A stretch of 36,407 bases of DNA, from positions 1-36,407 of the forward strand of contig NZ_JAPSMD010000013.1 in assembly GCF_027856955.1 (NCBI RefSeq). The letters run 5' to 3'. Positions 3,812 through 30,133 of the stretch are shown here, piece by piece. The position numbers were made by a program, and so were the translations under genes. The notes under the pieces were generated by a model. It made no database searches and was not told where the DNA came from. It was given only the letters and a program-made list of their open reading frames with translations. This DNA comes from Falsiroseomonas oryzae (GTDB lineage Bacteria > Pseudomonadota > Alphaproteobacteria > Acetobacterales > Acetobacteraceae). Numbering within the stretch: the stretch's first letter is position 1; each line of letters starts with the position of its first letter.

Positions 3812-3888
3812 GGCGACCTCTCAGGGTGCTCGGAACGCGCGGTCGACGAGGGACGGGCCCGGTGGCCGGCCCGCTCCTGGACGGATCG

Positions 3889-3919
3889 CCGCGGCGATGT
3901 CGGAGGGGCATCGCCGCGG
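3889..3919 (-). terminator. Strong intergenic hairpin between the two giant repeat genes
   Basis: ccgcggcgatg (3889-3899) pairs perfectly with catcgccgcgg (3909-3919) across a 9-base loop, an 11-bp GC-rich stem. It lies after the stop of the gene ending at 3989 and before the start at 3811, both minus strand. No T-tract follows, so it could be a Rho-independent-like terminator, an mRNA-stabilising structure or a processing site. Confidence 0.4.
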
Positions 3920-3988
3920 AAGCGTTGGCGGGGTGGGAAGCATCGTGGATACCCCGGGTTTGGCAGGATCGGTGTTTGTCGTGGGTAT

Positions 3989-6900
3989 TCAGATCAGCTG
4001 GTCGGGTTGCACGAAGGCGAACGGCGTGAACTCGGGATCGGTGCTGTCCTCGATCGGGGCTGCCGCCGCGATGTCGGCGGCCGGTAGCGGCGCGAAGGTG
4101 GTGAGAGCGTCGGTGTCCATGCTGGCGGCCGCCGTGCTCGATGCCGCACCGGCCGAGACAGTCAGGCTGTCCCAAGCTGCGGTGATGGGACCGGAGGAGC
4201 CGAAGGAGGTGGAGATGACGCCGACGGCGAGTTCGCTCTGCTGCCCGCCCACCACGAGGTCGCCCTGCACCGCGTCGAGCAGGGCGCCGGTCAGCGCCTT
4301 GGCCGCACCCGTGCCGGCGCCGATCTGCGCCCCCGCCGCGTCGTGCAGCGTCCAGCGCGGCGTTGCCGTCGCGCCGCTGCCCGTCTTCGCCACATCGAGG
4401 TAGAACAGCCCGTAGGCGACGTTGCCGGTCGGCACGCCGAGCCCGACCGTGGTGCCGTCCGGCGTGCCGGAGTTCTCGACCAGGAATTCGATGCCGCCGG
4501 CGCCGTTGTTCGCCTGGAACACCAGCTTGGCGTAGTTGTCCTGGTCGCCGGCGCCGAACATCACGCCGGCCGAGCGCCAGTTCTGTGCCGCGACGCCGCC
4601 GGCGAAGGGGTTGTCCACCTTCGAGGCGACGGTGAAGGCGGCGACGCCCGCGGTGTCGACGCCGAGCTGGTAGGCGTTCTGCTGGGTGTTCAGGCTGCCG
4701 TAGGGATCGCCCGTGGTGGTCTGCACGACCAGCTTGCCGTTGGCCACGCTGCCCGAGGCGGCGAGCGCCGTGTAGGCCTGCGTGCCGTTCGCCATCACCC
4801 CGGTGAAGCCGCTGCCGAACGGCGTCGTGCCGGTGCCGAAGTCGAGCGTCAGCGTGCCGAGCTGCGCCAGGTTGTTGCCGCCCCCGTTGCTCGCATCCAG
4901 CGCGAAGCGGTCCAGCGTGTCCGACAGCCCGTCGCCGTCCGCATCCGCGGAGGCGGTGTCGTTGTCGGTGACGGCCACCGGGACCGGCGCCACCGGCAGT
5001 CCGTTGTAGGCGCTGTCGCCGCTGCTGGTGGCGAAGGTCAGGCTGGCGGTCTCCGCGCCTTCCACCGCGGTGTCGTCCACCGCCGCCACGGCAACCGTCT
5101 GCGCGACATTCCAGTCTGCCGCCGTGAAGGTCAGCGTCGCGCTGCCCGCCGGCGTGCCGCTGCCGGCCGCAACAGCCACATCGGCCGTGCCGGTCACCGT
5201 GACCGTCACGTTCGCGCCCGGCTGGCTCGCCAGCACCACGCTCAGCATGTCCGTCGCTCCGCCCTCCGTCACTGCCGTCGTGCCGCCGCTCTGCGTCACC
5301 ACCACCCCCGCCGCGGGCGGTGGCGGCGGCGTGCCGGTGGTGGAGATGGTCAGGCTGTCCCAAGCTGCGGTGATGGGTCCGGAGGAGCCGAAGGAGGTCG
5401 AGATCACGCCGACGGCGAGTTCGCTCTGCTGCCCGCCCACCACGAGGTCGCCCTGCACCGCGTCGAGCAGGGCGCCGGTCAGCGCCTTGGCCGCGCCCGT
5501 GCCGGCGCCGATCTGCGCCCCCGCCGCGTCGTGCAGCGTCCAGCGCGGCGTTGCCGTCGCGCCGCTGCCTGTCTTCGCCACATCGAGGTAGAACAGCCCG
5601 TAGGCGACGTTGCCGGTCGGCACGCCGAGCCCGACCGTGGTGCCGTCCGGCGTGCCGGCGTTCTCGACCAGGAATTCGATGCCGCCGGCGCCGTTGTTCG
5701 CCTGGAACACCAGCTTGGCGTAGTTGTCCTGGTCGCCGGTGCCGAACATCACGCCGGCTGAGCGCCAGTTCTGTGCCGCGACGCCGCCGGCAAAGGGGTT
5801 GTCCACCTTCGAGGCGACGGTGAAGGCGGCGACGCCCGCGGTGTCGACGCCGAGCTGGTAGGCGTTCTGCTGGGTGTTCAGGCTGCCGTAGGGATCGCCC
5901 GTGGTGGTCTGCACGACCAGCTTGCCGTTGGCCACGCTGCCCGAGACGGCGAGCGCCGTGTAGGCCTGCGTGCCGTTCGTCATCACCCCGGTGAAGCCGC
6001 TGCCGAACGGCGTCGTGCCGGTGCCGAAGTCGAGCGTCAGCGTGCCGAGCTGCGCCAGGTTGTTGCCGCCCCCGTTGCTCGCATCCAGCGCGAAGCGGTC
6101 CAGCGTGTCCGACAGCCCGTCGCCGTCCGCATCCGCGGAGGCGGTGTCGTTGTCGGTGACGGCCACCGGGACCGGCGCCACCGGCAGTCCGTTGTAGGCG
6201 CTGTCGCCGCTGCTGGTGGCGAAGGTCAGGCTGGCGGTCTCCGCGCCTTCCACCGCGGTGTCGTTCACCGCCGCCACGGCAACCGTCTGCGCGACATTCC
6301 AGTCTGCCGCCGTGAAGGTCAGCGTCGCGCTGCCCGCCGGCGTGCCGCTGCCTGCCGCAACAGCCACATCGGCCGTGCCGGTCACCGTGACCGTCACGTT
6401 CGCGCCCGGCTGGCTCGCCAGCACCACGCTCAGCGTGTCCGTCGCCCCGCCCTCCGTCACCGCCGTCGTGCCGCCGCTCTGCACCACCGTCACCCCCGCC
6501 GCGGGCGGTGGCGGCGGCGTGCTGGTAGCCGCAGTGATCCGGATGCTCTCCCAGAAGGCCGGGAAGGTGGTACCGCTGCCGAAGGCGGTCGAGATGATGC
6601 CGACCGCAAGCGCGCTCGGCGTGCCGGCGACGCTGTAGCTGCCCTGCAGCGCCTGCAGCGTCGCGCCTGACAGCGGAACTGCGGCGCCGCTGCCCGCGAA
6701 CTCCGTGCCGTCTACCGTGTAGATCCAGCTTGGCGTCGCGGTCGCAGCGTCCCTGTTCACCAGCAGCTTCAGCGTGATGCTGTCGAGCGTCTGGATGCCG
6801 GCACCAGTGATGCCGGCACCGTAGACAGCGCTGCTGAACGTGCCGGCATTCTCGCTGGCGACCTCGATACCGCCGGCACCGCCATTCGCTGCGGCGACGA

Positions 6901-9584: not shown

Positions 9585-10946
9585 GTGGGACCGGAGCGGA
9601 TCGGGCGAGACCGCGGACGGCATCCCGGCCGGTGGGCCGCAACCATTCGCGGCGCGGCGGCGCGCGCCGGCCAGCTGCGTGGCGCGTGGGGCCTGGCCGA
9701 TCAGGGCATCGCAAGCCTTGGCAACTACCTGAGCGGCGTGGTCCTGGTTCAAGCGCTGTCGAAGCAGGATTTTGGCACCTTCTTCCTGGTCTTCGGCGTG
9801 CTGCTGCTGCTGAACGGGCTGCACGCCGCCCTCATCACGTATCCGCTGTCTGTGCGCGGCGCCGAAGGCGATGCCGGGCACCTCCGGCAGCGCGCCGGCA
9901 TCGCAATCGCGGACACTCTTGTCCTGGCGATCCCGCTTGGCGGCGTCGTCGCTTCTGCGGCAATCCTGGCGCAGCGGCCGTCGCTGATCCCGTGGGCACT
10001 CGCCGCAATGCTGGCGTGGCAGGTGCAGGAGACGCTGCGCCGCGCACTGATGGCGCATCTCCGTCACCGGGACGCGCTGCCCGGCGATGCGGTCAGCTAC
10101 CTCGGACAGGCGCTGCTGCTGGCGGGCCTCGGGTATGCCGGGCTGCTGTCACTGGAAACGGCGTTCGGGGCCATGGCGGCTACGTCGCTGCTCGGGGCGC
10201 TTGTGCAGGGATGGCAGTTGCGGCCCGCCCGACCACGGGCGGCGGCGATCCTGGATGCGGCGCGCGGCGACTGGCGGTCCTGCCGCTGGATGCTGCTGAC
10301 GAGCGCGATCACGCTGGTCACGATGCAGTCGATGCCTTGGACACTCGGCTATTTCCACGGCCTGGCGACGGTGGCGGAATTCGGCGCCCTGTCGCTGGTG
10401 ATGGGTCTGGCCAATCCGGTGCTCATCGGCATGCTCGGCATGATCGTGCCGGCGGTGGCGGCGAGTCCGGACCTTGCCGCGGCGCGGCAGGTCACCCTCT
10501 CTCATGCGCTGTCTGCGGCGGCGCTGCTGGTGCCCTTCCTGCTCGCCGTGCTGGTTGTGCCGGGGCAGGCGTTGGTGATCGTGACGCAGCAGAGCGCCTA
10601 TTCCGAGCTCGGCACGCACCTGCGGCTTTTCGCGCTCGGTTACGCGCTGGCCTTCCCGGCGCAGGTCGTGCAGGCGATGCTGAACGGCCTCGGCCGGACC
10701 CGCGACGGCTTCGTCGCGCAATGCTGCTTTTCGGCGACGACGATCCTCGTGAGCCTGCCGATGGCAGCGGCCTTCGGCCTGACCGGCGCGGTTTGGGCGG
10801 GCCTGCTGCCCGGGCTGGCATTCAGCGTCGTGGCGATCACCCTGCTGCGCCGCATGACGCCGGCGGCGGACACTGCGGCGTGTGTCGCGACCTGCCACCC
10901 AAGCCCGGGGTGTGCAGCAACGCCAGTCCGAACGGAGGCCACATGA
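9585..10946 (+). CDS. Wzx-type polysaccharide flippase (MOP/MVF superfamily)
   Basis: A 453-residue polytopic membrane protein expected to flip undecaprenyl-linked oligosaccharide across the inner membrane. After a basic N-terminus it shows about 12 hydrophobic segments beginning with LADQGIASLGNYLSGVVLVQ, the opening pattern of Wzx/RfbX proteins in which the first helix carries a polar stretch and is followed by LSKQDFG. The GTG at 9585 has a ggggaga about 12 bases upstream, and no ATG occurs before the first helix. Its stop overlaps the next start as ATGA (10943-10946), so the flippase and the following GT2 are translationally coupled. The family call is firm; the transported unit is unknown. 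The C-terminal 25 residues are Cys/Thr/Pro-rich and not family-typical. Confidence 0.85.
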   Translation: MGPERIGRDRGRHPGRWAATIRGAAARAGQLRGAWGLADQGIASLGNYLSGVVLVQALSKQDFGTFFLVFGVLLLLNGLHAALITYPLSVRGAEGDAGHLRQRAGIAIADTLVLAIPLGGVVASAAILAQRPSLIPWALAAMLAWQVQETLRRALMAHLRHRDALPGDAVSYLGQALLLAGLGYAGLLSLETAFGAMAATSLLGALVQGWQLRPARPRAAAILDAARGDWRSCRWMLLTSAITLVTMQSMPWTLGYFHGLATVAEFGALSLVMGLANPVLIGMLGMIVPAVAASPDLAAARQVTLSHALSAAALLVPFLLAVLVVPGQALVIVTQQSAYSELGTHLRLFALGYALAFPAQVVQAMLNGLGRTRDGFVAQCCFSATTILVSLPMAAAFGLTGAVWAGLLPGLAFSVVAITLLRRMTPAADTAACVATCHPSPGCAATPVRTEAT

Positions 10947-13414: not shown

Positions 13415-16400
13415 ATGTCCGCATCGCTTCAGCCTGTCACCGTTGATCTCACGAAGTCCCTCACCGGTTCACTCGGCTCTCAGGCCTGGGGCGGGCTGAC
13501 GGTTTCGGCGAAGAATGCGTCCGGAGCCGCGGCGCTGGTGATCCGGGAGCCGGATGGGCTCGGCGTGGCGGGCGGGCGCTTCGCCGGCCAGGTCGACTAC
13601 GACCCGGTCACCCACACGAGCGAGACCCTGCGGCTCGACTTCGCAGCAGCCATTGACGCCGTGACCGTGCGCCTGGCCCGGATGACCCCGACCGAGGCGG
13701 TGAACAGGGCCGAGGTCGGCGCATGGCAGGCCTACAACGCGGCCGGCGTGATGGTCGCGGAAGGAATACTGGACCCGCGCGGCAAGACGCCGGTCGGCAC
13801 CGCCACCTACGACTTCACCATCGACCCGGCCGTCGACTTCCAGCGCATCGAACTCACCGCGCGCCCTTACAACAACGACCGCACGCTCGATGCGCCCGGC
13901 GGGAGCTCCGATTTCAGCCTGGCAGCGGTCACCTACAGGCCTGCGGGTGTTGCAACGGCCGGGCTGGTCATCACCGAGAGCGGCGGGTCCACGGCCGTCA
14001 CCGAAGGTGGCGCCACCGACACCCTGACCGTCGCACTCGCCACCCAGCCGACGGCGAATGTCACGGTGACGATCGCCGGCGACGCGGATGTTGCCGGCGC
14101 CGCCACGCTCACCTTCACGCCGCAGAACTGGAACGTCGCGCAGTCCGTCGTGGTCGCCGCGGTGAACGACACGCTGCAGGAGGCGGCAGAGGCCGCACGG
14201 CTGACCATCCGCTCATCCAGCACCGATGCCGCCTACGCCGGCCTCCAAGACCGCGTGGTGAACGTTGCCGTGACCGACAACGACTCCGCCCCGCTCGTCT
14301 CCGGCGCCGTCACGGTCGGGTCCGCCGCCGCGCTGACCGGCGCGTTGGGCGCGCAGAGCTGGGGTGGGCTGCTGGTCTCGGCGCAGGCCGCGTCCGGCGC
14401 GGCAACGCTGGTCACGAAGACGGCAGACGGTCTCGGCGTCACCGGCGGCCGCTTCGCCGCCCAGATCGACTACGACACTGCATCGCGCACCAGCGAGATG
14501 CTTCGCCTCAACTTCGGGACGGCCGTCGATTCCGCGACCTTGCGCATCGGCCGGCTCAATCCCGCCGAACCCGCGGGCCAAGCCGAGGTGGGCGCCTGGC
14601 GCGCGTACGACGTTGCCGGCGGCCTGGTTGGCGAGGGCCTCTTGGACCCGCGCGGCCGGACGGCCGTGGCGAACCTCACCTACGACTTCGTGGTCAACCC
14701 GGCCGCGGACTTCCACCGCATCGAACTGACCGCCCGGCCCTACAACAACGACGCCACGTCCGGTGCCACTTACGAAAGCTCCGACTTCAGCCTTGCCCAG
14801 GTTAGCTACATCCCGCGCACCGCGCCGCCTCAGGCGACCGCCGCGCTCGTCGTAACCGAGAGCGGTGGGTCGACCGCAGTGACGGAAGGCGGCGCCGGAG
14901 ACAGCGTCACGGTCGCGCTCGCAAGCAAGCCTTTGGCCAATGTCACGGTCGCAGTCACGGGTGATGCAGACCTGGTCGCCGGTGCGACCCTGACCTTCAC
15001 GCCGCTGAACTGGAACCAAGCTCAGACGGTCACGGTCGGCGCCGTGAACGACACGCTTGTCGAAGGGGCGGAAACAGCGAAGCTGACGTTCGACGCATCG
15101 AGCGCTGACGCGCAGTACGGCGCGCTCCCGAACCGCGTTCTCAACGTCGCCGTGGCCGACAACGATACCATGCCGAGTGGGGGCGGTGCCCCCGCGGGTG
15201 CCGTGGTGGTGAAGGTTGGCGCAGATATCCAGGCGCTGGTGAATGCGAACCCCGCAGGCACTGTCTTCTGGATCGAGGCTGGCGAACACAGGCTTCAATC
15301 GATCACGCCGAAGGATGGCCAGCATTTTATCGGCGCCGATGGCGCGATCCTGAACGGCTCGCGCGAGCTCACCGGCTTCAGCGTTAGCGGCAACACCTGG
15401 TTCGTGGACGGGCAGACCCAGGAAGGTGCACGGCGCGGCACCGGGGAAGCGACCAGCGGCTTCTCCCGTGCCGGCTACCCGGATGCGGTGTTCCTCGATG
15501 ACAAGCCGCTGCTGCATGTCGGTAGCGTGCAGGAGGTGCGGCCCGGCACCTACTTCTTCGACTATGCCGCCGATCGCATCTACATCGGGGACAACCCGGC
15601 GGGCCACCAGGTCGAGGCGGCCGTTCGCGATGCCGCCTTCAAGGGTTCGGCGACGGGCGTGACGATCGAGAACCTGGTGATCGAGAAGTACGCCACGCCC
15701 GCGCAGTTCGCCGCGATAGGCGGATCGTCGAAGCCGGTGGACTGGCTGATCAAGGACAACGAAGTCCGGCTCAATTACGGGGTCGGGATCCAGGCAGGCG
15801 AAAACACCGAGGTGATCGGCAACTTCATCCACGATAACGGCCAGATGGGCGTCGGCGCGAGCGGGAAGGGCGTGCGCTACGAGGCGAACGAGATCGCGGA
15901 GAACGGCTTCTGGTCCGGCCTCAACGTCTACTGGGAGGGCGGCGGCAGCAAGTTCGCCAACACCGACGGCTTGATCGTGCGCGGAAACTACGTGCACGAC
16001 AACAACGGAATGGGCCTCTGGACGGACATCAACAATATCCGCACGCTCTACGAAGGCAATCGTGTCGAGAACAACAGCGGGGCCGGCATCAGCCACGAGA
16101 TCAGCTACAGCGCCATTATCCGCAACAACACTTTGGCCGGCAACGGCGAGCCGGGCGTGCCCTGGATCTGGGACGGCGCCATCCAGATCCAGAACTCCTC
16201 GAATGTCGAGGTGTACGGCAACACCGTTGACATCAGCGGCGGCGGCAATGGCATTACCATGATCCAGCAGAACCGCGGCTCCGGCACCTACGGCCCGTGG
16301 GTCACGACAGGTAACCACGTGCACGACAACATCGTGGTGAATCGGACGGGCGAGGGCCGGTCCGGCGCGGTCGCCGACTACGATTGGGCGGGGCTGAAGG

Positions 16401-16543
16401 CGGGCGGCAACCTGTTCGACAACAACGAGTACCGCTTCGCGAATCTGGCTGACGACCACTTCGCGTTCAACAGCTTCCTGGGCTGGAACGCCTACCGCAC
16501 CGCGTCGGGCTGGGACGCCAACAGCGAACTGGTGCTGATCTGA
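13415..16543 (+). CDS. Giant cysteine-free protein ending in a right-handed parallel beta-helix (1042 aa)
   Basis: Probably a secreted polysaccharide-binding or polysaccharide-modifying protein. The order is module A (about 10-177), Calx-beta (about 182-290), module A again (about 297-468), Calx-beta (about 478-585), then a beta-helix of about 445 residues (597-1042). The helix shows repeated N-x-[VI] turns and the motifs NNGMGLWTDINN, GISHEISY and GPWVTTGN. Module A also ends the protein at 389-3811. The beta-helix is homologous along its whole length to the C-terminal half of the polymerase fusion at 20417-23269. There is no Sec signal, no cysteine, and a hydrophobic end SELVLI, which together suggest type I secretion. 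Beta-helix families include lyases, epimerases and hydrolases, and the catalytic type is unknown. The ATG is preceded by agggggg. Confidence 0.88.
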   Translation: MSASLQPVTVDLTKSLTGSLGSQAWGGLTVSAKNASGAAALVIREPDGLGVAGGRFAGQVDYDPVTHTSETLRLDFAAAIDAVTVRLARMTPTEAVNRAEVGAWQAYNAAGVMVAEGILDPRGKTPVGTATYDFTIDPAVDFQRIELTARPYNNDRTLDAPGGSSDFSLAAVTYRPAGVATAGLVITESGGSTAVTEGGATDTLTVALATQPTANVTVTIAGDADVAGAATLTFTPQNWNVAQSVVVAAVNDTLQEAAEAARLTIRSSSTDAAYAGLQDRVVNVAVTDNDSAPLVSGAVTVGSAAALTGALGAQSWGGLLVSAQAASGAATLVTKTADGLGVTGGRFAAQIDYDTASRTSEMLRLNFGTAVDSATLRIGRLNPAEPAGQAEVGAWRAYDVAGGLVGEGLLDPRGRTAVANLTYDFVVNPAADFHRIELTARPYNNDATSGATYESSDFSLAQVSYIPRTAPPQATAALVVTESGGSTAVTEGGAGDSVTVALASKPLANVTVAVTGDADLVAGATLTFTPLNWNQAQTVTVGAVNDTLVEGAETAKLTFDASSADAQYGALPNRVLNVAVADNDTMPSGGGAPAGAVVVKVGADIQALVNANPAGTVFWIEAGEHRLQSITPKDGQHFIGADGAILNGSRELTGFSVSGNTWFVDGQTQEGARRGTGEATSGFSRAGYPDAVFLDDKPLLHVGSVQEVRPGTYFFDYAADRIYIGDNPAGHQVEAAVRDAAFKGSATGVTIENLVIEKYATPAQFAAIGGSSKPVDWLIKDNEVRLNYGVGIQAGENTEVIGNFIHDNGQMGVGASGKGVRYEANEIAENGFWSGLNVYWEGGGSKFANTDGLIVRGNYVHDNNGMGLWTDINNIRTLYEGNRVENNSGAGISHEISYSAIIRNNTLAGNGEPGVPWIWDGAIQIQNSSNVEVYGNTVDISGGGNGITMIQQNRGSGTYGPWVTTGNHVHDNIVVNRTGEGRSGAVADYDWAGLKAGGNLFDNNEYRFANLADDHFAFNSFLGWNAYRTASGWDANSELVLI

Positions 16544-19098: not shown

Positions 19099-20412
19099 CT
19101 ACTTTGGTGGTGCGCCTACCCCGCCCGCGGCGAGCGCGGAGGACGCGACTACGTGGCCAGTCGGCATGCACGCGCCCGCCCTGCCGCGCCGCTCACGCCA
19201 CGCGGCGATCGCTGTCGCGTAATGTGCCTGCATGGCATCCGATCGCCGGTCCCAGGCGAAGTCTTCGGCGTGCCTTCGCGCTGCCGCCGACATCTCCGAC
19301 AGGCGCTCGCGATCGGCTGCCAAGTTATCGATGACATGCGCCATCGCTGCCGCCACCTGTGCGGGCCAGCCGACCGGGACCTTCATCGCCGCCTCTGCCG
19401 TCAGGTGCGCGCCGACGCCCTGATGGTCGATGCAGATGACGGGCGCGCCGCCGGCCAGTGCCTCCGGCACGACATTGCCGAAGGTGTCGCGGACGCTGGT
19501 GAACAGGAACACATGCGCAGAGCGATGCAGCGTCTGCAGTTCCGGCCAGGGGCGCGGCCCGAGGAAGGTGACCCGATCTCGGAGGCGGAGCCGCTCAGCC
19601 TGCCGCTGCGCCGCCTTTGCCAGCGGACCGTCGCCGGCGATCACAAAGCGGACGTCCGGTGCTGCCACACGCCGCGCGACGTCGAGGCAGAGGCCGATCC
19701 CCTTCCGCGCCTCGATGCGCCCCGCCCAGAGTACGACGAACGGTCCCGCCTTTGGCCGGGGGGGCGGGGGGTCCTGCAGTAGGTGGCGCGGGACACCGAC
19801 ATCGGCGAACAGGCGCGGCGCAGCAGCGCCGGCCTGGCGCAGCACGGATGTCGTCTCATGATTGGCCGAGAAGACCGCGGCGGCGCGCGATGCGGCGCGC
19901 CGCACGGCCGGTGTCATGGGCATCAGCGACACCCGTAGCGTGCGCAGCAGTTCGGACGGGATCGCACGGCCGAAGCTGCTGAGCAGCCGCCACGGTGTCG
20001 TCTGACCACCACCAAGCGGCCCCCAGATGAACGGCTTGTCAAGCCGCCAGAGCCGCGGCGGCGCGCTGACCGTTCCCCATCCGACATGGTGCATCAGGTC
20101 GAAGTCATGCACAGCGTCGAGCTCGGCGGCCAGGCGCATGACGCGGCGCTGCCACGCGACGTAATGCAGGCGGATCCAGCGGCTGGACGGCAATCGCAGC
20201 GGATCCCACCAGCCCAGCCGTCCCGTGTAGACGAAGCGCAGCCGCGGAATTGGCGTGTGCGCCAGGTACCGTTCGATCTGCGGCTGGAAGTAGGCGTGCG
20301 TGATCACCCAGACGTCGTTCGCCTTCGCAAGGTGAGCCGCCCAGTTCCAGGTGCTGCCGGGTTCCGATCCGGACTCGGGCGCGCAGCCATGGCCGATCAG
20401 CAGGATCCGCAT
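19099..20412 (-). CDS. Glycosyltransferase family 4 (GT-B fold)
   Basis: A 437-residue glycosyltransferase, third gene of the minus-strand operon behind the co-polymerase and the polymerase fusion. It begins MRILLIGHGCAPESGSEPGS, an opening common in GT4 enzymes, followed by the acceptor domain with HHVGWGTVSAPPRLW and KPFIWGPLGGGQTTP. The donor domain shows VVLWAGRIEARKGIGLCLDV and DTFGNVVPEALAGGAPVI, where the second glutamate of the E-x7-E pair is kept and the first is replaced by Asp. The ATG at 20412 lies four bases after the stop of the polymerase gene, so coupling is likely; the longer open frame to 20508 overlaps that gene and is not used. The last 25 residues are a low-complexity Ala/Gly tail. 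Confidence 0.88.
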   Translation of the reverse strand: MRILLIGHGCAPESGSEPGSTWNWAAHLAKANDVWVITHAYFQPQIERYLAHTPIPRLRFVYTGRLGWWDPLRLPSSRWIRLHYVAWQRRVMRLAAELDAVHDFDLMHHVGWGTVSAPPRLWRLDKPFIWGPLGGGQTTPWRLLSSFGRAIPSELLRTLRVSLMPMTPAVRRAASRAAAVFSANHETTSVLRQAGAAAPRLFADVGVPRHLLQDPPPPRPKAGPFVVLWAGRIEARKGIGLCLDVARRVAAPDVRFVIAGDGPLAKAAQRQAERLRLRDRVTFLGPRPWPELQTLHRSAHVFLFTSVRDTFGNVVPEALAGGAPVICIDHQGVGAHLTAEAAMKVPVGWPAQVAAAMAHVIDNLAADRERLSEMSAAARRHAEDFAWDRRSDAMQAHYATAIAAWRERRGRAGACMPTGHVVASSALAAGGVGAPPK

Positions 20413-20416
20413 GCCG

Positions 20417-23269
20417 TCACCTCGGATCGCGTGCAGGCATGACGGACAGCGTGCTATCCGCATCCTGTCCGGAACTGGCGCGGTACCCGGCCCATGGCTG
20501 CCAGCCATCCGTCCAGGCCCAGTAGGCCGCGCCGGGATCGGCCACGTGGTAGGCGTTGCCGCGGAAGATGTTGTGCCCGTTGCGCATCCCGTCCCGGTCG
20601 TGGTCGGCGACTGCCCCCGACCGGCCGTGAAGGGGGAGGGTGGCGATCACGACGTTGCCCACGACCTGGTTTCCGGTCGTCACCCAGGGCCCATGTCGGC
20701 CCGTGCCGCGATCCTGCTGGATCAGCGAGATCCCGTTGCCCTGGTGGGCGACGATCAGGTTGCCCTGCACCAGCACGTTGCGGGAATTCTGCACCTGGAT
20801 GGCGCCGCCCCAAAGCCAGACGTGGAAGCCGTCGCCGTTGCCGTCGAGGTAGTTGCCGCGGATCACCGCGTCGTAGCTGATCTCATGCGAAATGCCGCTG
20901 TTGACGTTACGCAGCACCAAGTTGCCTTCGTACAGCGTGTGCAGGTTATCGATATCGGTCCACAGGCCGATGCCGTTGTTTGCTTCGACGCGGTTGCGCC
21001 GGAAGGTCAGTCGCGTCGTCTGCGCGCACTTCACGCCGCCCCCTTCCCACAACGTATCGATGCCACGGAAGTAGCCGTTGCGCGAAATCTCGTTGTCCTG
21101 GAAGAGCACATCTTCGCCGCCACAGCCGGCGCCCATGTTGCCGTTGCCGTGGATGCGGTTATGCAGCACGCGGCTGCGCGCGCCGACCATCACGCCGATC
21201 GCCGAGTTCAGCCGGACCTCGTTGTTGCGAACGGTCCATTCCACTGGCTTCAGATGCAGTCCGATGGCGCCTGCCTGCGCGGCGGAGGCGTATTTCTCGA
21301 TCACCAACCCTGCGATCAGAACGCCACGGGCCCCGCCGATGAAGGCGGCCGGCGCCACACTCGCCTCGACGCGCCGACCGGCCGGGTTGCTGCCGACGTA
21401 CAGCCGGCGAGTCTCGTAGTCGAGAAAGAAGCTGTCCTCGCCGACCTCCGCCCGACTGCTGGCGTGGAACAGCGGGCGGTCGTCGATGAAGACGGCTTCG
21501 GGGAAGCCACAGCGCGGGCGATGCGCCGCGCATGGCACGTCCGGACGCTGCCAGCCGCGCTGGTCCTGCCCGCTGGCGACCCAATGCCGTCCATCGCGCA
21601 CGAAGCCCGAAACCAGCCGCGCCCCGTTCAGGATCGCGCCGGGCTCGCCGTGGAAGGCCTGGCGATCCCGCGGCGTGACCGTCTGCATCCGGTGGACACC
21701 CCGACCGAGACAGAAGACCGTCCCGTCCGGCGCCCGTCCGACGATAGCCGCCAGGTCGGCACCGGGCGGAAGGCGCATCGCAGAGGCGGGGCATGGCGGC
21801 TCCTGCGAGGCCAGCAACGGCTCGGCGGCGCTGGCACCGGGAGCGCCGGCGGCCAGCAACGCCCAGAGCAGGGTCGCCATCGGCACGGCGCGCGGCCAGG
21901 ACGGCGCGGCAGGCCGTAGCGCAACCAGGGATCGCTGCGTCCGATAGATCTGTGTCGCGCCGACGCCGATCCCGAACAGCACCCAGAACCAGATGCCGAG
22001 CATCGGACCCTCCAGCGCGACGTCGAAGGAGGCATTGATCAGGGCGGCGGCCAGGTAGCACGCGATGAACAGGAACAGCTTGAACCAAGCCTGGTCCGAG
22101 CGCGCGCGCGCTACGGCAATGTTGCGCACCATCATGCCGAACCAAGCCAGCAGGAGCAGCAGCCAGAGCGCGAGGCCAGGCACGCCCGCTCGCGCCAGCA
22201 TGGTCATGCTGATGTTGTGCGGACTGCGGAGCTCCGGCGCGCCCGGCGGCGTCACGCCGTCGAAGCCGTCGGCGCTCGCCAGCGCGATCCCGAATCCCTT
22301 GCCCGTCCAGAAGTACGGGCCGTGCAGCGTGTAGTCCACAATCGCTTGCCACCATAGCAGGCGCCACGCCTTCGTTCCGTCGAGATCGGAATTCGCCGAA
22401 TCGCCGAAGATGCTGGTGAAGTTCTCGACGACCTGCTCGACGCTCACTGAGCGTTCCCGTTCGATCATCGAGACATCGAGATCGAGGAGGAACGCCACTA
22501 CAACTACGATGCAGCCGGCCAGGAGCACGCCGGCGAGCTGGCGCACTCGGCCCGATAGCGCCAGCGCAACGCCTAACGGCAGCACCATCGCCAGCATGCC
22601 GCCGCGGCTGTGCACCCCAACCATCGCCATCCCGGTGATGAGAAGAGCGATCCAGGCTATGCTGATGCGCCGAAAGAAGAGCAGCCCGAAAACGGCGCTG
22701 CCGGCGAGGTGCACCGCCACGTCGCCCGGCTTCACCGCGATCAGCGGCAGGCCGGAGTTCGGCCACAACGGCAATAGGCCGCGGTTGCCGAGCAACTGCT
22801 GCATCGCATAGGCGATTCCGGCCGTCGCGCCAAAGGCGGCAGCGAAGCGGCCAAACAGCTTGATGCTGCGGTCCAGCCGCGCTGGCCGCTCGATCAGCAA
22901 CGCGCAGAGAATGAAGGCGAAGGCGCCGTAGAGCACCACGACGGCATCTCGCAGGGCGTCCATGCCGTGGACGGACAGGAATGGCACCGTCCGTGCCAGC
23001 GTCCAGGCGCCGAGCGCGAGCAGGAGCAGGTTCGGCACCGCCGCAAGCGTACCGACGACGCATCCGGTGCGGAACATCACCAGCAAGCCGACGCATACCA
23101 GCAGCTCGCCAACGAATAATGGTGGCACGCCGACATAGGCGAAGCTGCGGCCGAGGAGGGCGTAGCCGATCAGGCTCAGTCCAAGGGTGCGGATATAGAG
23201 CTCGGCGAGCGACCCTTCGCCCGGCGTCTTCCGGAGTGGAGCCGAGCCCGCCGAACCCGTACCACTCAT
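20417..23269 (-). CDS. O-antigen ligase/polymerase-like membrane protein fused to a beta-helix domain (950 aa)
   Basis: Residues 1-450 form a polytopic membrane protein with about 11-12 hydrophobic segments. They carry marks of the O-antigen ligase/Wzy_C family: HSRGGMLAMVLP at 220 and GKGFG...SPHNISMTMLARAGVPGL at 323-365 around a large periplasmic loop. It is expected to polymerise or ligate lipid-linked glycans. At 464 a hydrophobic segment MATLLWALLAAGAPGASAAE resembles a signal peptide with an A-S-A cleavage site at 479-481. Residues 490-950 are a right-handed beta-helix homologous end to end to that of 13415-16543, sharing GLWTDIDN, GISHEISY and GPWVTTGN, but with several cysteines. The frame is continuous, with no stop or ribosome-binding site at the junction. 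The start at 23269 overlaps the upstream stop as ATGA. Polymerase versus ligase cannot be decided. Confidence 0.85.
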   Translation of the reverse strand: MSGTGSAGSAPLRKTPGEGSLAELYIRTLGLSLIGYALLGRSFAYVGVPPLFVGELLVCVGLLVMFRTGCVVGTLAAVPNLLLLALGAWTLARTVPFLSVHGMDALRDAVVVLYGAFAFILCALLIERPARLDRSIKLFGRFAAAFGATAGIAYAMQQLLGNRGLLPLWPNSGLPLIAVKPGDVAVHLAGSAVFGLLFFRRISIAWIALLITGMAMVGVHSRGGMLAMVLPLGVALALSGRVRQLAGVLLAGCIVVVVAFLLDLDVSMIERERSVSVEQVVENFTSIFGDSANSDLDGTKAWRLLWWQAIVDYTLHGPYFWTGKGFGIALASADGFDGVTPPGAPELRSPHNISMTMLARAGVPGLALWLLLLLAWFGMMVRNIAVARARSDQAWFKLFLFIACYLAAALINASFDVALEGPMLGIWFWVLFGIGVGATQIYRTQRSLVALRPAAPSWPRAVPMATLLWALLAAGAPGASAAEPLLASQEPPCPASAMRLPPGADLAAIVGRAPDGTVFCLGRGVHRMQTVTPRDRQAFHGEPGAILNGARLVSGFVRDGRHWVASGQDQRGWQRPDVPCAAHRPRCGFPEAVFIDDRPLFHASSRAEVGEDSFFLDYETRRLYVGSNPAGRRVEASVAPAAFIGGARGVLIAGLVIEKYASAAQAGAIGLHLKPVEWTVRNNEVRLNSAIGVMVGARSRVLHNRIHGNGNMGAGCGGEDVLFQDNEISRNGYFRGIDTLWEGGGVKCAQTTRLTFRRNRVEANNGIGLWTDIDNLHTLYEGNLVLRNVNSGISHEISYDAVIRGNYLDGNGDGFHVWLWGGAIQVQNSRNVLVQGNLIVAHQGNGISLIQQDRGTGRHGPWVTTGNQVVGNVVIATLPLHGRSGAVADHDRDGMRNGHNIFRGNAYHVADPGAAYWAWTDGWQPWAGYRASSGQDADSTLSVMPARDPR

Positions 23270-25563
23270 CGCGGGGAGTCGCGCGCGGGCGCAGCGGCGG
23301 CTGCTTCGTCGCGGAGCAGCAGCCGTTCGAAGAAGCGGGGCTGTTGCGTGTAGAAGGAACACTGATCCAGCACGCGCAGGTGAGCGTGACGGCGAAGGTC
23401 CACGCGGGTCAGCACCACGCCGTCCGGCTGAACAGCGTGTTCCTGCATGCGGCGCAGGGCGGCCGCAACAATCCGCCGCTTGGTGCTGGCCCAACGGGTG
23501 ACGTGGACGATGTTGTCGGCCACATGGCCGAGCACCAGCGAATCGGCAACCAACATGACCGGCTCGCCCTCCAGGATGATGACGTCGAAGTGCCGGCGCG
23601 CATCCTCGATCAGAGTGCCGAACCCGCCCTGCCCGTTGATGTCCGCACGCTGTCTGAAGCTGCGCCTCCGGTCCAGTACGACCAGCCTAGACGCCGAGAC
23701 GGCCAGGCCGGGTACGGTCTCGGCAGGCGAAGCGCCGGCTGGCTCGGCGCCCGCGAGGTCCGTGGCAGTCGCGTTGCCGATGAACATCACGCGCTTGCCC
23801 GCCTCGGTCAACGTGCGCGCCATCTCCCGGCACAGCATCGACTTGCCCTCGCCCGGCACCGAGGACGTGACCAGCACCACTCGGCACTCACGCGACGGCC
23901 CGAATAGATGAGTGCTGGCGCAAATCGCGTAGACTGCCTCGTCGAAGGCCGCGCGCTCCGGCGCAGGTGCCGTCCGACTCGGCCGGTCGGGCAGCATGCC
24001 AAGGCAGCGTGTGTCGAGTGCTCGCCGCACGTCGTCGCCCGTGAGCAGACCGCTGTCGCGCCGGTCGAGCAGCACTGCGATGCCCGTCCCAGCCGAGAGG
24101 CCGGCAAGCAGCGCGAGCGCCATGACGACCAGTGGCTTCGGTGCTTCCGGGCCGCGCGGCGGATCGGCCGCTGCGACAAGGCTCGCGACAGACGACGCCC
24201 GTTGCGCCGCTGCCGCCGCCGTCTCGCTGTTCTGCACCAGCACGCCCAGCCGGTCGCGCAGGGACTGCGCATTGGCCAGCATGTTGCGCAACTCCGTCTC
24301 GCGCTGCTTGCCCGCGACCATCGCAACCTGCTGCGCATCAAGCCGGCGCTGAAGGTCCTCTTCGAGCCGGCGCGCTGTTGCCAACTCGCCGCTGATGATC
24401 GTCACGGCGCGGGCGACTTCAGCCTGCAGGCGGCCACGGATCTCCGCGAGGCCGGCCTGTGCTTGGCGCACATCCGGGTGCCTGGACCCGAAGCGCGCGG
24501 ACGCTTCGCTCAACTCACGCCGCGCCGTCGATTCGCGGTCGAGCAGGAGCGAGAACAGCGGCAGTCCCGGAACATCGGAGGCCGACGGAATCGTGCCCGC
24601 CGCGATCAGGTCCTGCACGCGTGCGAGGCGCCGTTCCTCGTTGATGCGCGCGAGGGTCGCGGCGTTCAGCTGTTGCGACAGGGCGCGCAGGCGCTGCTGC
24701 GGGACGTTCTCCGAATCGCCATTCCCGTCAGGTCTCCCGGGCTCGAGGAGGCCTGTTTCCGTGCGGAATGCGTCGATCTCCGCTTCTGCCTGCCGGAGTG
24801 CCGCCGTGGTGTTGCGGACCCGCGAGGCCAGCCATTCGCTGACCCGGCTCGCGGCATCCGCGCCGTCCTGCTGGCGGCGCCGCAGATATTCTTCGGCGAA
24901 GGCGTTGGCGATCCGCGCTGCTTGGACCGGGTCGGGCGCGGCGTAGATGATGGAGATCAGGTAGGAGCGGTTGTCGTTGGTCACGGAGAGGCGCATCAGC
25001 ACCTGGTCAACGGCACGTGCGATACGGTCCTGGCGCTGTTCGGCGGCCGATGGCTCGCGGGCCGGCGTCTCAGGGACTGACGTGGGCCGGAGCATCCGCC
25101 CGACCGCCTCCGCTGCCGCGCCGATCCGGTAGACGAGGGCTGGCGGCGCATCGGCGTAGGCGGGGTCGTCGGCCAACCCGAGCGTCTCCACGACCTGCCG
25201 GGCCATCGGGCGGGAGCGGATGATGCGCGCCTCGCTCTGGATCATGGGGCCGGCCTCGACCAGGACGCCACGCGAGCGTTCCTGGACGCCTGAGGCGATG
25301 CTCTGCGCGCTGAAGTCGAGCTGGACGACAGCTTCGGCTTGGTAGCGCTTCTCGATCGAGGCGAGCACGACGACACCAATCGCGAGACAGACGACGATGG
25401 CGAGTACGAGAAAATGGATGTAGCGCCAAAGCGCGAGCAGCATGCCGGATACGGCGCGCTCGGCCTGCATGCGCACCGGCAGCTCGGCGAGGCCAGGCGA
25501 GAAGGGCGCGTCGAACGTAAGCCGGTCCACCTTGCGGATGCCCTTGGATACACCGGCGCGCAC
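23266..25563 (-). CDS. Wzz/Wzc-like polysaccharide co-polymerase with degenerate kinase domain (765 aa)
   Basis: An inner-membrane protein expected to control chain length and export. It has a first transmembrane helix at about 48-68 (YIHFLVLAIVVCLAIGVVVL), a long periplasmic Wzz/GNVR-type region with coiled-coil stretches (about 220-480), a second helix near 508-530, and a cytoplasmic P-loop domain. Walker A is present (SSVPGEGKSMLC, about 566-577). The Walker A' Asp motif is replaced by VMFIGNATATD, the later Walker motif reads IILEGEPVM instead of an IIDTPP-like form, and no C-terminal tyrosine cluster is seen. Kinase activity is therefore doubtful. The start is uncertain: GTG 25563, GTG 25530 and ATG 25470 are in frame, none with a strong ribosome-binding site. 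It is the first gene of the operon to 19099. Confidence 0.87.
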   Translation of the reverse strand: MRAGVSKGIRKVDRLTFDAPFSPGLAELPVRMQAERAVSGMLLALWRYIHFLVLAIVVCLAIGVVVLASIEKRYQAEAVVQLDFSAQSIASGVQERSRGVLVEAGPMIQSEARIIRSRPMARQVVETLGLADDPAYADAPPALVYRIGAAAEAVGRMLRPTSVPETPAREPSAAEQRQDRIARAVDQVLMRLSVTNDNRSYLISIIYAAPDPVQAARIANAFAEEYLRRRQQDGADAASRVSEWLASRVRNTTAALRQAEAEIDAFRTETGLLEPGRPDGNGDSENVPQQRLRALSQQLNAATLARINEERRLARVQDLIAAGTIPSASDVPGLPLFSLLLDRESTARRELSEASARFGSRHPDVRQAQAGLAEIRGRLQAEVARAVTIISGELATARRLEEDLQRRLDAQQVAMVAGKQRETELRNMLANAQSLRDRLGVLVQNSETAAAAAQRASSVASLVAAADPPRGPEAPKPLVVMALALLAGLSAGTGIAVLLDRRDSGLLTGDDVRRALDTRCLGMLPDRPSRTAPAPERAAFDEAVYAICASTHLFGPSRECRVVLVTSSVPGEGKSMLCREMARTLTEAGKRVMFIGNATATDLAGAEPAGASPAETVPGLAVSASRLVVLDRRRSFRQRADINGQGGFGTLIEDARRHFDVIILEGEPVMLVADSLVLGHVADNIVHVTRWASTKRRIVAAALRRMQEHAVQPDGVVLTRVDLRRHAHLRVLDQCSFYTQQPRFFERLLLRDEAAAAAPARDSPR

Positions 25564-25757: not shown

Positions 25758-26558
25758 ATGCAGCCTGCTCTTGGGACCGATCGCGTCAACATACTTGGCA
25801 TCGGCGTCAGTGCGATCACGATGCGCGACGCAACTGCGACCCTTGAGTGCTGGATCCGGGACCGTACGCCCGGCTACGTCTGCATCACCGGTGTGCACGG
25901 CGTCATGGAAAGCCGGCGAGACACTGCGTTGCAGACGATCCACAACGCCGCAGGCATGGTAACGCCCGACGGCATGCCCCTGGTGTGGATGGCGCGGCTG
26001 CTCGGCTTCCCGCATGTGGAACGCGTCTACGGCCCCGACCTGATGCGAGAGATGAGTGCGATCTCCGCCGCGCGCGGCTACCGGAACTTCTATTTCGGCG
26101 GTGCGACGGGCGTTGCCGAGCAGTTGCGCGACAGCATGTGCCGCGCCTGCCCGGGTCTGCAGGTGGTGGGCACGGCCTGCCCGCCTTTCCACCCGCCCAC
26201 GGAGGAGGAAGACGCCGCGGCCGTGCGCGCCATCAATGCAGCGAGGCCGGACATCGTCTGGGTGGGGTTGAGCACGCCCAAGCAGGAACGCTGGATGGCG
26301 GCACATCGCGGGCGGCTCGACGCACCCGTGCTGGTCGGCGTGGGCGCGGCCTTCGACTTCCTGTCCGGCCGCAAGCGCCAGGCGCCGCGGTGGATGCAGC
26401 GCAATGGCCTGGAATGGGCGTTCCGTATGGCGACAGAGCCTCGACGGCTGGCGGGCCGCTACCTTCGAAACAACCCAGCCTTCTTGGTCAGCGCGCTACG
26501 TCAGCTTGCGCAGCCCAGCGCCTATCCTCACGGCCGCGGCGGTGCGGCGACACCGTGA
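25758..26558 (+). CDS. WecG/TagA/CpsF family glycosyltransferase (GT26)
   Basis: A 266-residue enzyme that usually adds the second sugar to an undecaprenyl-diphosphate-linked residue. Family motifs appear in order: NILGIGVSAITM at the start, CITGVHGVMESRRD (about 35-48), VTPDGMPLVWMARLLG (about 70-85), RVYGPDLM, NFYFGGATGVAEQL, VWVGLSTPKQERWMA (about 170-185), and GVGAAFDFLSGRKRQAP with WMQRNGLEWAFRM. The length fits the family. The ATG is preceded by ggaggga. It is the first gene of a plus-strand operon that also contains the initiating sugar transferase, which fits a role as the next transferase in assembly. Donor sugar is unknown. Confidence 0.92.
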   Translation: MQPALGTDRVNILGIGVSAITMRDATATLECWIRDRTPGYVCITGVHGVMESRRDTALQTIHNAAGMVTPDGMPLVWMARLLGFPHVERVYGPDLMREMSAISAARGYRNFYFGGATGVAEQLRDSMCRACPGLQVVGTACPPFHPPTEEEDAAAVRAINAARPDIVWVGLSTPKQERWMAAHRGRLDAPVLVGVGAAFDFLSGRKRQAPRWMQRNGLEWAFRMATEPRRLAGRYLRNNPAFLVSALRQLAQPSAYPHGRGGAATP

Positions 26559-27668: not shown

Positions 27669-29075
27669 GTGAGCGAGTTCTCACGCCCCTTGCCTGGCAG
27701 CTTCGCCGGCGTACAGGCCCCTGCGGCAGGGCGCCCGGGCGCGGGGCAACTGCCGGCCGGCATCGTCCTGGCGCTTGGTGACATCGCAGTCACGCAGGTG
27801 GTCGTGGCCGTTGCGGCGCTCGCTGTCGCGCTGGTCGTGGGGTTCGACGATCTCGTCGCCACCTGGCGGCCGGACCATGCGGCGGCGGTGACTGCGGCGC
27901 TGCTCGCGGCCAACTGGCAACTCGGCTTGTACGAGACCTGTGGGCGCGGGCCCGTGGAGCGGTTTCGCCTCCGCGTCCTCGGAGGGGCCATCATGCCCGT
28001 TGCTGCCTTGGCGCTGATCGCGCTGTTCGACCCCGCGCCGCGCGACGCCCTGCCGCTGCTGGCCGGTGCCGCCCTGCTTGCCGTACCGGCGACGCTGGTC
28101 TGCGAGGCGCGGCTGCAGGACGCGCTGATCGCGCGCGGTGCCTGGGGCTGCACCGCGGTGCTGGTAGGGCCGGAAGGTGCGACCGCGCGTCTCGCCGCAG
28201 CGTTGCTGGCCCGGCCCGAAATCGGCTTCAGGCCGGTCGAGCGGTGCGGTGATGCCGCGCGACTCACCCAGCCGGCGGCGGAGATCGCGCTGGTTCTTGC
28301 GGCTCGCGGCACGCCTGCGCTGGCGGACCTCATGCGGCTGGAGGTCCGGCGCATCATCGTCGTGCCGGAGTTGGACGCGTTGCCTGGTTTGTGGCTGCAG
28401 GTGCGCACTGTCGGCGACGGGGCAGGTATTGAGGTCCCGCATCGGTCCCGTTCTGTGGCGTGTCAGCGCACGAAGCGCGCCTTCGACCTGTGCATAGCGG
28501 TGCCAGCGCTACTCGCCTGTGCACTGCCGATCTGCATCCTTGCGCTGGCCATCAAGGCGATCAGCCCCGGGCCAGCCTTCTACGTGCAGCGCCGCGTCGG
28601 CTTGCGCGGGCAGCCAGTCCCCACTTTGAAGCTGCGCACGATGTATCCTGACGCGGAGCAGCGGCTGAAGGACTTGCTCGATGGCGACGTCGTGCTGCGC
28701 ACCGAGTGGGAACGCTGCGTCAAGCTGCCGCACGATCCGCGCATACTGCCGATACTAGGTAAGGTGCTGCGGCGCTTCAGCCTGGATGAATTGCCGCAGC
28801 TTTGGAATGTCGTGCGCGGCGAGATCAGCATGGTCGGGCCGCGGCCTTTCCCAGCCTATCATGTTGCCCGCTTTCCGCCAGAGTTCCAGGCGTTGCGTGC
28901 CAGCGTGAAGCCCGGACTGAGTGGTCTATGGCAGATCTCGGACCGCAGCGACGCCGACCTGCAGCGGCAGCAGGAAATTGACAGCTTCTACATCCGCAAC
29001 TGGTCGCTCTGGCTCGATGCCTACATCGTGGCGAAAACGCTGCCCGCGCTGCTCAGAGCGCGCGGCGCGCGGTGA
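27669..29075 (+). CDS. WbaP-type undecaprenyl-phosphate sugar phosphotransferase
   Basis: A 468-residue membrane enzyme that starts polysaccharide synthesis by moving a phosphosugar from a nucleotide sugar to undecaprenyl phosphate. The N-terminal half has about four hydrophobic segments followed by a poorly conserved Rossmann-like region (ALIARGAWGCTAVLVGPEG). The C-terminal catalytic part (about 265-468) is a canonical bacterial sugar transferase domain: KRAFDLCIAVPALLA, PAFYVQRRVGLRGQPVPTLK, and the catalytic RRFSLDELPQLWNVVRGEIS with VGPRPFPAYH. The family's end motif KPGLSGLWQISDRSD is present. The start is a GTG at 27669 with only a weak upstream ribosome-binding site. Sugar choice (galactose or glucose phosphate are usual) cannot be read here. 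Confidence 0.92.
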   Translation: MSEFSRPLPGSFAGVQAPAAGRPGAGQLPAGIVLALGDIAVTQVVVAVAALAVALVVGFDDLVATWRPDHAAAVTAALLAANWQLGLYETCGRGPVERFRLRVLGGAIMPVAALALIALFDPAPRDALPLLAGAALLAVPATLVCEARLQDALIARGAWGCTAVLVGPEGATARLAAALLARPEIGFRPVERCGDAARLTQPAAEIALVLAARGTPALADLMRLEVRRIIVVPELDALPGLWLQVRTVGDGAGIEVPHRSRSVACQRTKRAFDLCIAVPALLACALPICILALAIKAISPGPAFYVQRRVGLRGQPVPTLKLRTMYPDAEQRLKDLLDGDVVLRTEWERCVKLPHDPRILPILGKVLRRFSLDELPQLWNVVRGEISMVGPRPFPAYHVARFPPEFQALRASVKPGLSGLWQISDRSDADLQRQQEIDSFYIRNWSLWLDAYIVAKTLPALLRARGAR

Positions 29076-29119
29076 GAAGCGCACGGTGACACAACACTGC
29101 CAAGGTGAGGAAGAACGAC

Positions 29120-30133
29120 ATGATGCGCAAGCGGGTACTGGTCACCGGGGGGGCCGGGTTCCTAGGCTCCCACCTCTGCGAGCGGCTGCTTTCGACGGGC
29201 CACGACGTGCTGTGCGTCGACAACTACTTCACAGGAAGCAAGGACAACATCCTGCATCTACTGGCAGATCCGCGCTTCGAAGTGCTTCGGCACGACATCA
29301 CCTTCCCGCTCTACGTCGAGGTGGACGAGATCTACAATCTGGCCTGTCCAGCCTCCCCAGTGTACTACCAGTATGATCCGGTGCAGACCACAAAAGTGAG
29401 CGTTCTGGGGTCGATCAACATGCTCGGCCTTGCGAAGCGGGTCGGCGCGCGCATCCTGCAGGCCTCCACCAGTGAGGTATACGGCGATCCCACCGTGCAC
29501 CCGCAGCCCGAGGAGTACCGAGGCAACGTCAACCCGCTCGGACCCCGCGGCTGCTATGACGAAGGCAAGCGCTGCGCGGAGACGCTGTTCTTCGACTATG
29601 CCAGGCAGCATCGCGTGAGGATCCGCGTCGTGCGCATCTTCAACACCTACGGCCCTCGCCTCAATGCCAGCGATGGTCGGGTGGTGTCGAACTTCATTGT
29701 CCAGGCGCTCCGCGGCGACGACATCACGATCTATGGTGACGGCGGCCAGACGCGCGCCTTCTGCTATGTGGACGACCTGATCGACGGACTGATGGCGATG
29801 ATGGGCGCCGATGACGACGTTACTGGCCCGGTGAACCTCGGCAACCCGCACGAGATCCCCGTGCTTGAACTGGCCGAACGGATCCTCGCGCTCACGGGGT
29901 CGCGTTCACGGATCATCAGGAAGCCCCTGCCGGTTGACGACCCGACGCAGCGCTGCCCGGAGATCTCGCGGGCTCGGCAATTACTGAAGTGGGAGCCAAG
30001 GATCGACCTGGACGAGGGTCTACGGCGAACGATCGCCTATTTCGTGCAGAAGATGCAAGGCGCGGAGCCACCTCGCGCGTCAAACGACGATCTTGCGCGG
30101 GCAGGGGCCGCGGCGCTGCGTGGCGCGGTGTAG
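29120..30133 (+). CDS. uxs: UDP-glucuronate decarboxylase (UDP-xylose synthase)
   Basis: A 337-residue SDR enzyme converting UDP-glucuronate to UDP-xylose and CO2 (EC 4.1.1.35), supplying xylose for the polymer. It shows the NAD-binding [23 protein letters not shown], the family-specific [27 protein letters not shown], the catalytic CYDEGKR with its Tyr and Lys, [10 protein letters not shown] and [16 protein letters not shown]. Length and motif order fit bacterial UXS closely. The ATG at 29120 is chosen over the GTG at 29105 because the latter lies inside the likely ribosome-binding site gtgagga; a second ATG follows at 29123. It is the last gene of the plus-strand operon, followed by a hairpin at 30168. 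No UDP-glucose dehydrogenase is in the window, so UDP-glucuronate must come from elsewhere. Confidence 0.93.

Follow-up and report, generated by a model that had tools for sequence, protein, structure and literature searches.

The window, by which we mean the whole stretch of 36,407 nucleotides of Falsiroseomonas oryzae DNA that was analyzed, looks like a Wzx/Wzy-type exopolysaccharide locus because it carries glycosyltransferases, a sugar transferase of the polymer-initiating kind and a WecG-type enzyme. Within it lies a fused gene, whose product is referred to below as P0001, in the following setting:

13415..16543, plus strand: second protein of the locus, with a C-terminal domain (15188-16540) of the same beta-helix family as that of P0001 (50% identical over 450 amino acids)
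19099..20412, minus strand: group 1 glycosyltransferase, directly 3' of the fused gene (Pfam)
20417..23269, minus strand: fused gene of 950 amino acids (P0001), Wzy_C-type part, internal signal-peptide-like segment and beta-helix
20420..21802, minus strand: right-handed beta-helix domain, residues 490-950, with the family-invariant K747, D772 and E796 (Pfam profile, AlphaFold2)
21827..21919, minus strand: joining segment, residues 451-481, with arginines, a hydrophobic stretch (464-476) and A-S-A (479-481) (sequence)
21920..23269, minus strand: Wzy part, residues 1-450, with 12 predicted membrane helices and a large loop at 262-352 (AlphaFold2 model, WaaL fold match)
22160..22651, minus strand: Wzy_C (PF04932) match, residues 207-370, including HSRGG and SPHN (Pfam profile)
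23266..25563, minus strand: Wzz-domain (Wzc/GumC-like) chain-length protein, its stop overlapping the start of the fused gene in ATGA (Pfam)
25758-26558: WecG-type enzyme (Pfam)
27669-29075: sugar transferase, polymer-initiating kind (PF02397)

Further glycosyltransferases in the window were recognized by Pfam, and a possible flippase gene at 9585-10946 had no Pfam match. The gene at 29105-30133 is, judging by its motifs, UDP-xylose-synthase-like.

Translation of the minus strand from 23269 to 20417 gives 950 codons and a stop in a single frame, and the plus-strand reading of the same interval contains seven stops. Both halves score above their Pfam cut-offs: Wzy_C (PF04932) at residues 207-370 with E 2e-15 (57.3 bits against 31.7) and Beta_helix (PF13229) at residues 670-828 with E 3.6e-18 (66.1 bits against 25.9). 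This bears out the preliminary description, which had proposed a Wzy-type protein joined to a beta-helix in one 950-codon frame without giving the strand. With the TIGR03097 profile (PEP_O_lig_1), P0001 reached 30.8 bits, below the curated cut-off of 188.1. The open frame extends 5' of the ATG at 23269 as far as 23686 (1089 codons in all); the overlap of this ATG with the stop of the Wzz-domain gene upstream makes it the likely start. The GC content at third codon positions is 0.85 upstream of, within and downstream of the joining segment. A full-length AlphaFold2 model of P0001 (pLDDT 83.1, pTM 0.54) matched both WaaL (7tpg, TMt 0.59) and beta-helix enzymes in a structure search.

P0001 shares the Wzy_C domain and the WaaL fold with WaaL and Wzy proteins; we know of no C-terminal beta-helix in characterized members of either group. 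In the model, the Wzy half has 12 helices, their boundaries chosen by hand on the predicted structure, and the loop 262-352 lies between helices 9 and 10. A published account (PMC12004945) gives Wzy_C-type proteins 10-14 membrane helices and a large periplasmic loop, a topology that the predicted helices and loop of P0001 fit. The short loops of the Wzy half contain 14 lysines and arginines on the side assumed to be inside and four on the outside, which fits a cytoplasmic C-terminus of this half. The 12-helix model and the loop charges together would place the loop 262-352 in the periplasm, the end of the Wzy half in the cytoplasm, and the beta-helix in the periplasm after one more crossing. 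The neighboring Wzz-domain gene and the glycosyltransferases suggest that P0001 may be a polymerase rather than a ligase.

Residues 490-950 were predicted separately as a beta-helix with a mean pLDDT of 95.6, as expected in the preliminary description. The folds closest to it belong largely to carbohydrate enzymes and phage tailspikes (XylC, GH110, GH87, GH28, capsule lyases and mannuronan epimerases), and these matches are loose, the best having a TMq of 0.58 and an rmsd of 8.4. By sequence, the best matches in the PDB are mannuronan epimerases (AlgE4, E 1.3e-7). Among relatives of the domain, one from Azospirillum carries two CBM60 modules and an Ig-like domain, and one from Hansschlegelia carries RTX repeats. 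Given these two relatives and the second copy in the window, which sits on a large repeat protein, the beta-helix family may occur in both periplasmic and secreted forms.

The relatives of P0001 show that the two parts also occur as separate genes. P0001 was matched in 4 of the 15 genomes of its genus, and only the window is fused (1/15): in G011 and G014 the Wzy and beta-helix genes are separate, with about 10 kb between them, and only the Wzy part is present in G001. Across the family, scanned with up to two candidates scored per genome, 39 of 347 genomes matched at 1e-3, mostly weakly and in the Wzy part, and again only the window was fused (1/347). None of the six other family genomes with matches above 300 bits has the fusion. 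The beta-helix gene lies directly 3' of the Wzy gene in another frame in G120 and G065; at a contig end in G301, the Wzy stop is followed by a start resembling a signal peptide, the two parts of G255 are on different contigs, G337 shows the beta-helix only, and the sixth is G019. A further genome (G1178, L172 1321-4350) encodes the two parts in the same frame, separated by just one TGA, an arrangement that is apparently a pre-fusion state. In Falsiroseomonas tokyonensis (L057 7751-11368), two beta-helix genes of the family are arranged head to head, their open frames 15 bases apart.

A contig search with the single protein returned no relatives; relatives were found with alignment A1. A scan with 13 beta-helix sequences gave 149 loci, and the best 80, classified by our own counting rule over up to 10 kb on each side (less on some shorter contigs), comprised 9 with a fused gene, 12 with a Wzy gene directly upstream of the beta-helix gene on the same strand, 19 with Wzy elsewhere and 40 without Wzy. 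A hydrophobic stretch precedes the domain in 11 of the 12 adjacent-gene loci, the exception (L066) having RTX repeats. The nine fused loci belong to six Bosea strains, one Boseaceae isolate and two metagenome-assembled genomes. Of the 67 genomes sampled from the genus of Bosea sp. Root483D1, 21 matched: 14 carry the complete fusion as a single frame, one has it broken and six have two genes. The 14 fusions, which overlap with the nine loci, are 74-86% identical to the Root483D1 protein, and three of them lie at contig positions beyond 4 Mb. Since the fusion recurs in Bosea, homologues of the two halves are not always separate genes, as they would have to be to refute the preliminary description; within its own genus and family samples the window stands alone. 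The order sample had matches in 11 of 397 genomes, of which three, all from the genus of Root483D1, are fused, and the class sample in 7 of 385, of which only the window was seen fused and one (G1043) matched in a Wzy part ended by the contig end. These two samples thus contained no fusion beyond the Bosea genus and the window. Two candidates were discarded: L123 was not counted because it had been taken for a two-domain protein only on a partial Wzy match of 33 bits and a full Wzy lies elsewhere, and G744, which seemed fused from an open-frame value of 1176, has two frames. The Bosea-type fusion of G419 (L151) is the broken one, its frame being interrupted within Wzy.

Phylogenetic analysis of the beta-helix half began with a tree of 107 of 134 sequences (score limit and choice of loci, duplicates dropped), and a 47-sequence tree served for the one-clade test. 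In the latter, the domain of the window groups with separate Falsiroseomonas genes (support 98/95), and forcing it together with the other fused sequences, 14 fused rows in all, costs 113 log units (AU p 1.1e-10), which rejects a single origin. The Wzy tree, built from 49 of 71 Wzy matches (score limit and choice of loci to drop duplicates), places the 14 Bosea fusions in one clade (100/100) and the window among four separate genes of its family on a branch that is not firm (84/80). The fusions were united in none of 200 bootstrap trees of the Wzy half, and the one-clade test of this half (p 0.108) did not reject a single origin. Because the beta-helix tree rejects one clade and the Wzy tree agrees without rejecting it, two origins are well supported by the beta-helix half of the sequences and not contradicted by the Wzy half. 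The fusion was probably derived more than once from two neighboring genes. In seven pairs of Bosea fusions, dN/dS was 0.12-0.18 for the Wzy half, 0.11-0.22 for the beta-helix and 0.13-0.52 for the joining segment; on such sequence comparisons the Bosea fusion is kept by selection.

Substrates of signal peptidase I have a basic start, a short hydrophobic stretch and small residues at positions -3 and -1. When this rule is applied directly to the sequence rather than through a predictor, the joining segment fits it in the window, where the stretch beginning at M464 leads to A479-S480-A481, with A479 and A481 as the small residues and a putative site after residue 481, and in 13 of the 14 Bosea fusions. 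The internal signal-peptide-like segment with A-S-A is present as first described. Residues 452-487 have a pLDDT below 50 in the full-length model. The 14 distinct Bosea segments are the least conserved part of the protein (mean entropy 1.11 bits, compared with 0.46 for the Wzy half and 0.52 for the beta-helix). All 14 keep a hydrophobic stretch and an alanine at the putative -1, and 13 have serine or alanine at -3, with sites placed by eye; the remaining one (L102) has proline at -3. This preserved cleavage-type pattern points to release of the beta-helix, not to its retention on the polymerase. The possible release by signal peptidase raised in the preliminary description thus gains from Bosea, and its other suggestion, a beta-helix held at the site of polymerization, loses. 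That the polymer may be trimmed or modified, which it also proposed, is plausible.

The reading that we favor, at a probability of about 0.58, is a natural fusion giving a single precursor, whose beta-helix is exported through an internal signal and probably freed by signal peptidase I to act on the cell's own polysaccharide. Two exopolysaccharide genes would have been fused into one precursor gene; the Wzy part would insert as 12 helices with its C-terminus in the cytoplasm; and the basic segment with the short hydrophobic stretch would serve as a signal peptide inside the chain, taking the beta-helix into the periplasm. A cut by signal peptidase I, probably after A-S-A481, would yield equal amounts of two products, the polymerase in the membrane and the beta-helix enzyme free in the periplasm, and the freed enzyme would act on new polysaccharide, more likely as a glycosidase than as a lyase or epimerase. 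A similar logic is known from FbcH, the cytochrome b/c1 precursor of Bradyrhizobium, in which a polytopic membrane protein and a periplasmic protein are joined through an internal signal peptide and cut apart; unlike P0001, FbcH belongs to a respiratory complex and not to glycan synthesis. Mannuronan C5-epimerases of the AlgG/AlgE type exist in periplasmic and secreted versions. They differ from P0001 in being encoded by separate genes and in their DPHE/DPHD catalytic motif: the aligned positions of the beta-helix are different, and membership in this family was rejected. Another parallel is WceF of Pantoea stewartii, described in one paper (PMC7949094) as a stewartan hydrolase that cuts the cell's own polymer; the same paper cites longer chains in knock-outs. 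Like the domain of P0001, WceF is a right-handed beta-helix that has an export signal and comes from an exopolysaccharide gene cluster. It differs in being a separate protein without a fused polymerase, with a Tat signal, a trimeric state and further tailspike-like domains. WceF shows that a beta-helix enzyme from a locus of this kind is able to cut the polymer of its own cell.

A doubtful alternative holds that the fusion is real and remains uncut, so that the periplasmic beta-helix stays attached to the polymerase and acts on the chain during its synthesis. The continuous chain and its maintenance by selection in Bosea agree with a tether, and the two origins indicated by the beta-helix tree suggest that the linkage itself is useful. 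Against it stand the alanine at -1 and the small residue at -3, kept within an otherwise variable segment, because a tether would not need a cleavage site. The fuller version, a Wzy polymerase with a tethered editing enzyme that cuts or modifies the growing chain, sets its length or composition and arose independently in the lineage of the window and in Bosea, is tentative to the same degree.

Somewhat less probable still is a non-catalytic beta-helix, a carbohydrate-binding or scaffold domain that would hold or guide the polymer. No known catalytic motif was matched in the domain, the absence of DPHE/DPHD included. Three residues, K258, D283 and E307 of the domain (K747, D772 and E796 of P0001), are nevertheless invariant in 65 of 65 relatives. 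They follow one another at intervals of 24-25 residues, roughly the length of one coil, as the residues of an active site might. The best fold match, the GH120 beta-xylosidase XylC (3vst; E 2e-11, TMq 0.58), is 11% identical at an rmsd of 8.4. Its catalytic pair, Asp382 and Glu405, lies 23 residues apart, and the pairs of homologues 23, 33 or 37 apart, according to a published study (PMC8954004). XylC also has an Ig-like domain. The invariant D283 and E307 are 24 apart, and this likeness in spacing serves as a lead only. We consider a hydrolase (glycosidase) more likely than a lyase or an epimerase. Xylose as the substrate, suggested by the XylC fold and the UDP-xylose-synthase-like gene, was set aside as not general because a homologue of that gene lies near none of the nine fused loci, six of the 12 adjacent-gene loci and 19 of the 59 others among the best 80 of 149.

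It is less probable again that the joined frame of the window comes from an error in sequencing, or from a mutation of very recent date, that hides a stop between two normal genes. The fused gene of F. oryzae is known from one draft assembly of 1040 contigs, in which a stop codon could have been misread, and the fusion in this lineage rests on that assembly because no other genome in the genus and family samples is fused. Wherever relatives in the genus and family possess both parts, two genes encode them, and G1178 is one TGA away from a fusion. Codons 411 to 546, on the other hand, contain no stop in any of the three frames, so a single-base insertion or deletion at the junction would not yield an ordinary gene pair. 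The in-frame starts nearest the hydrophobic stretch, GTG 462 and ATG 464, have no AGGAGG-like piece upstream, and a signal peptide begun at either of them would lack basic residues. By contrast, the six separate beta-helix proteins compared (G011, G014, G120, G301, G065 and L059) have basic starts of their own. The same layout also occurs in Bosea. An internal translation start as the normal route to a separate beta-helix is unlikely, and the chance of one slightly lowers our confidence in the favored reading. In 14 of 14 Bosea fusions an ATG lies in frame where the last Wzy helix ends, and a beta-helix started there could in principle have a long signal peptide. This ATG looks like a Wzy residue, because no AGGAGG-like piece of at least three bases precedes it and 15 of 23 unfused Wzy proteins likewise have methionine at this position. 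In 6 of the 14 fusions, the roughly 20 codons before the hydrophobic stretch contain no ATG, GTG or TTG.

Among the matches listed in a search of titles and abstract openings of the open-licence literature, no Wzy-beta-helix fusion was found, in keeping with the preliminary view of the layout as undescribed. That the layout might be peculiar to this genome did not hold, with 14 of 67 Bosea genomes sharing it, and it looks derived from a gene pair; the architecture is new as far as these searches reach, and its parts and logic were already known. Beta-helix glycan enzymes such as WceF occur in exopolysaccharide loci, and a fusion kept across Bosea species and in another lineage suggests that the enzyme and Wzy serve one step of one pathway. 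Soil bacteria thereby offer a test of the coupling of polymerase and glycanase. Should P0001 be cut as the favored reading proposes, it would be a candidate for a second bacterial precursor of a membrane and a periplasmic protein split at an internal signal peptide, beside FbcH.

Some features of the surrounding genes are recorded here in their own right. One Bosea fusion (L128 1-6246) has NRPS-like genes upstream of it (condensation, AMP-binding, class III aminotransferase and thioesterase), and because of them the polymer of that locus might carry amino-acyl groups. In the window, the giant minus-strand neighbors 389-3811 and 3989-9334 share four 300-nucleotide stretches that are 92-98% identical (window positions 917-5642), with spacings of 1188, 2028 and 1188, which suggests that repeat modules were recently duplicated or underwent gene conversion. 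The N-terminal modules of the repeat protein encoded at 13415-16543 resemble, by eye, the C-terminus of the 389-3811 protein.
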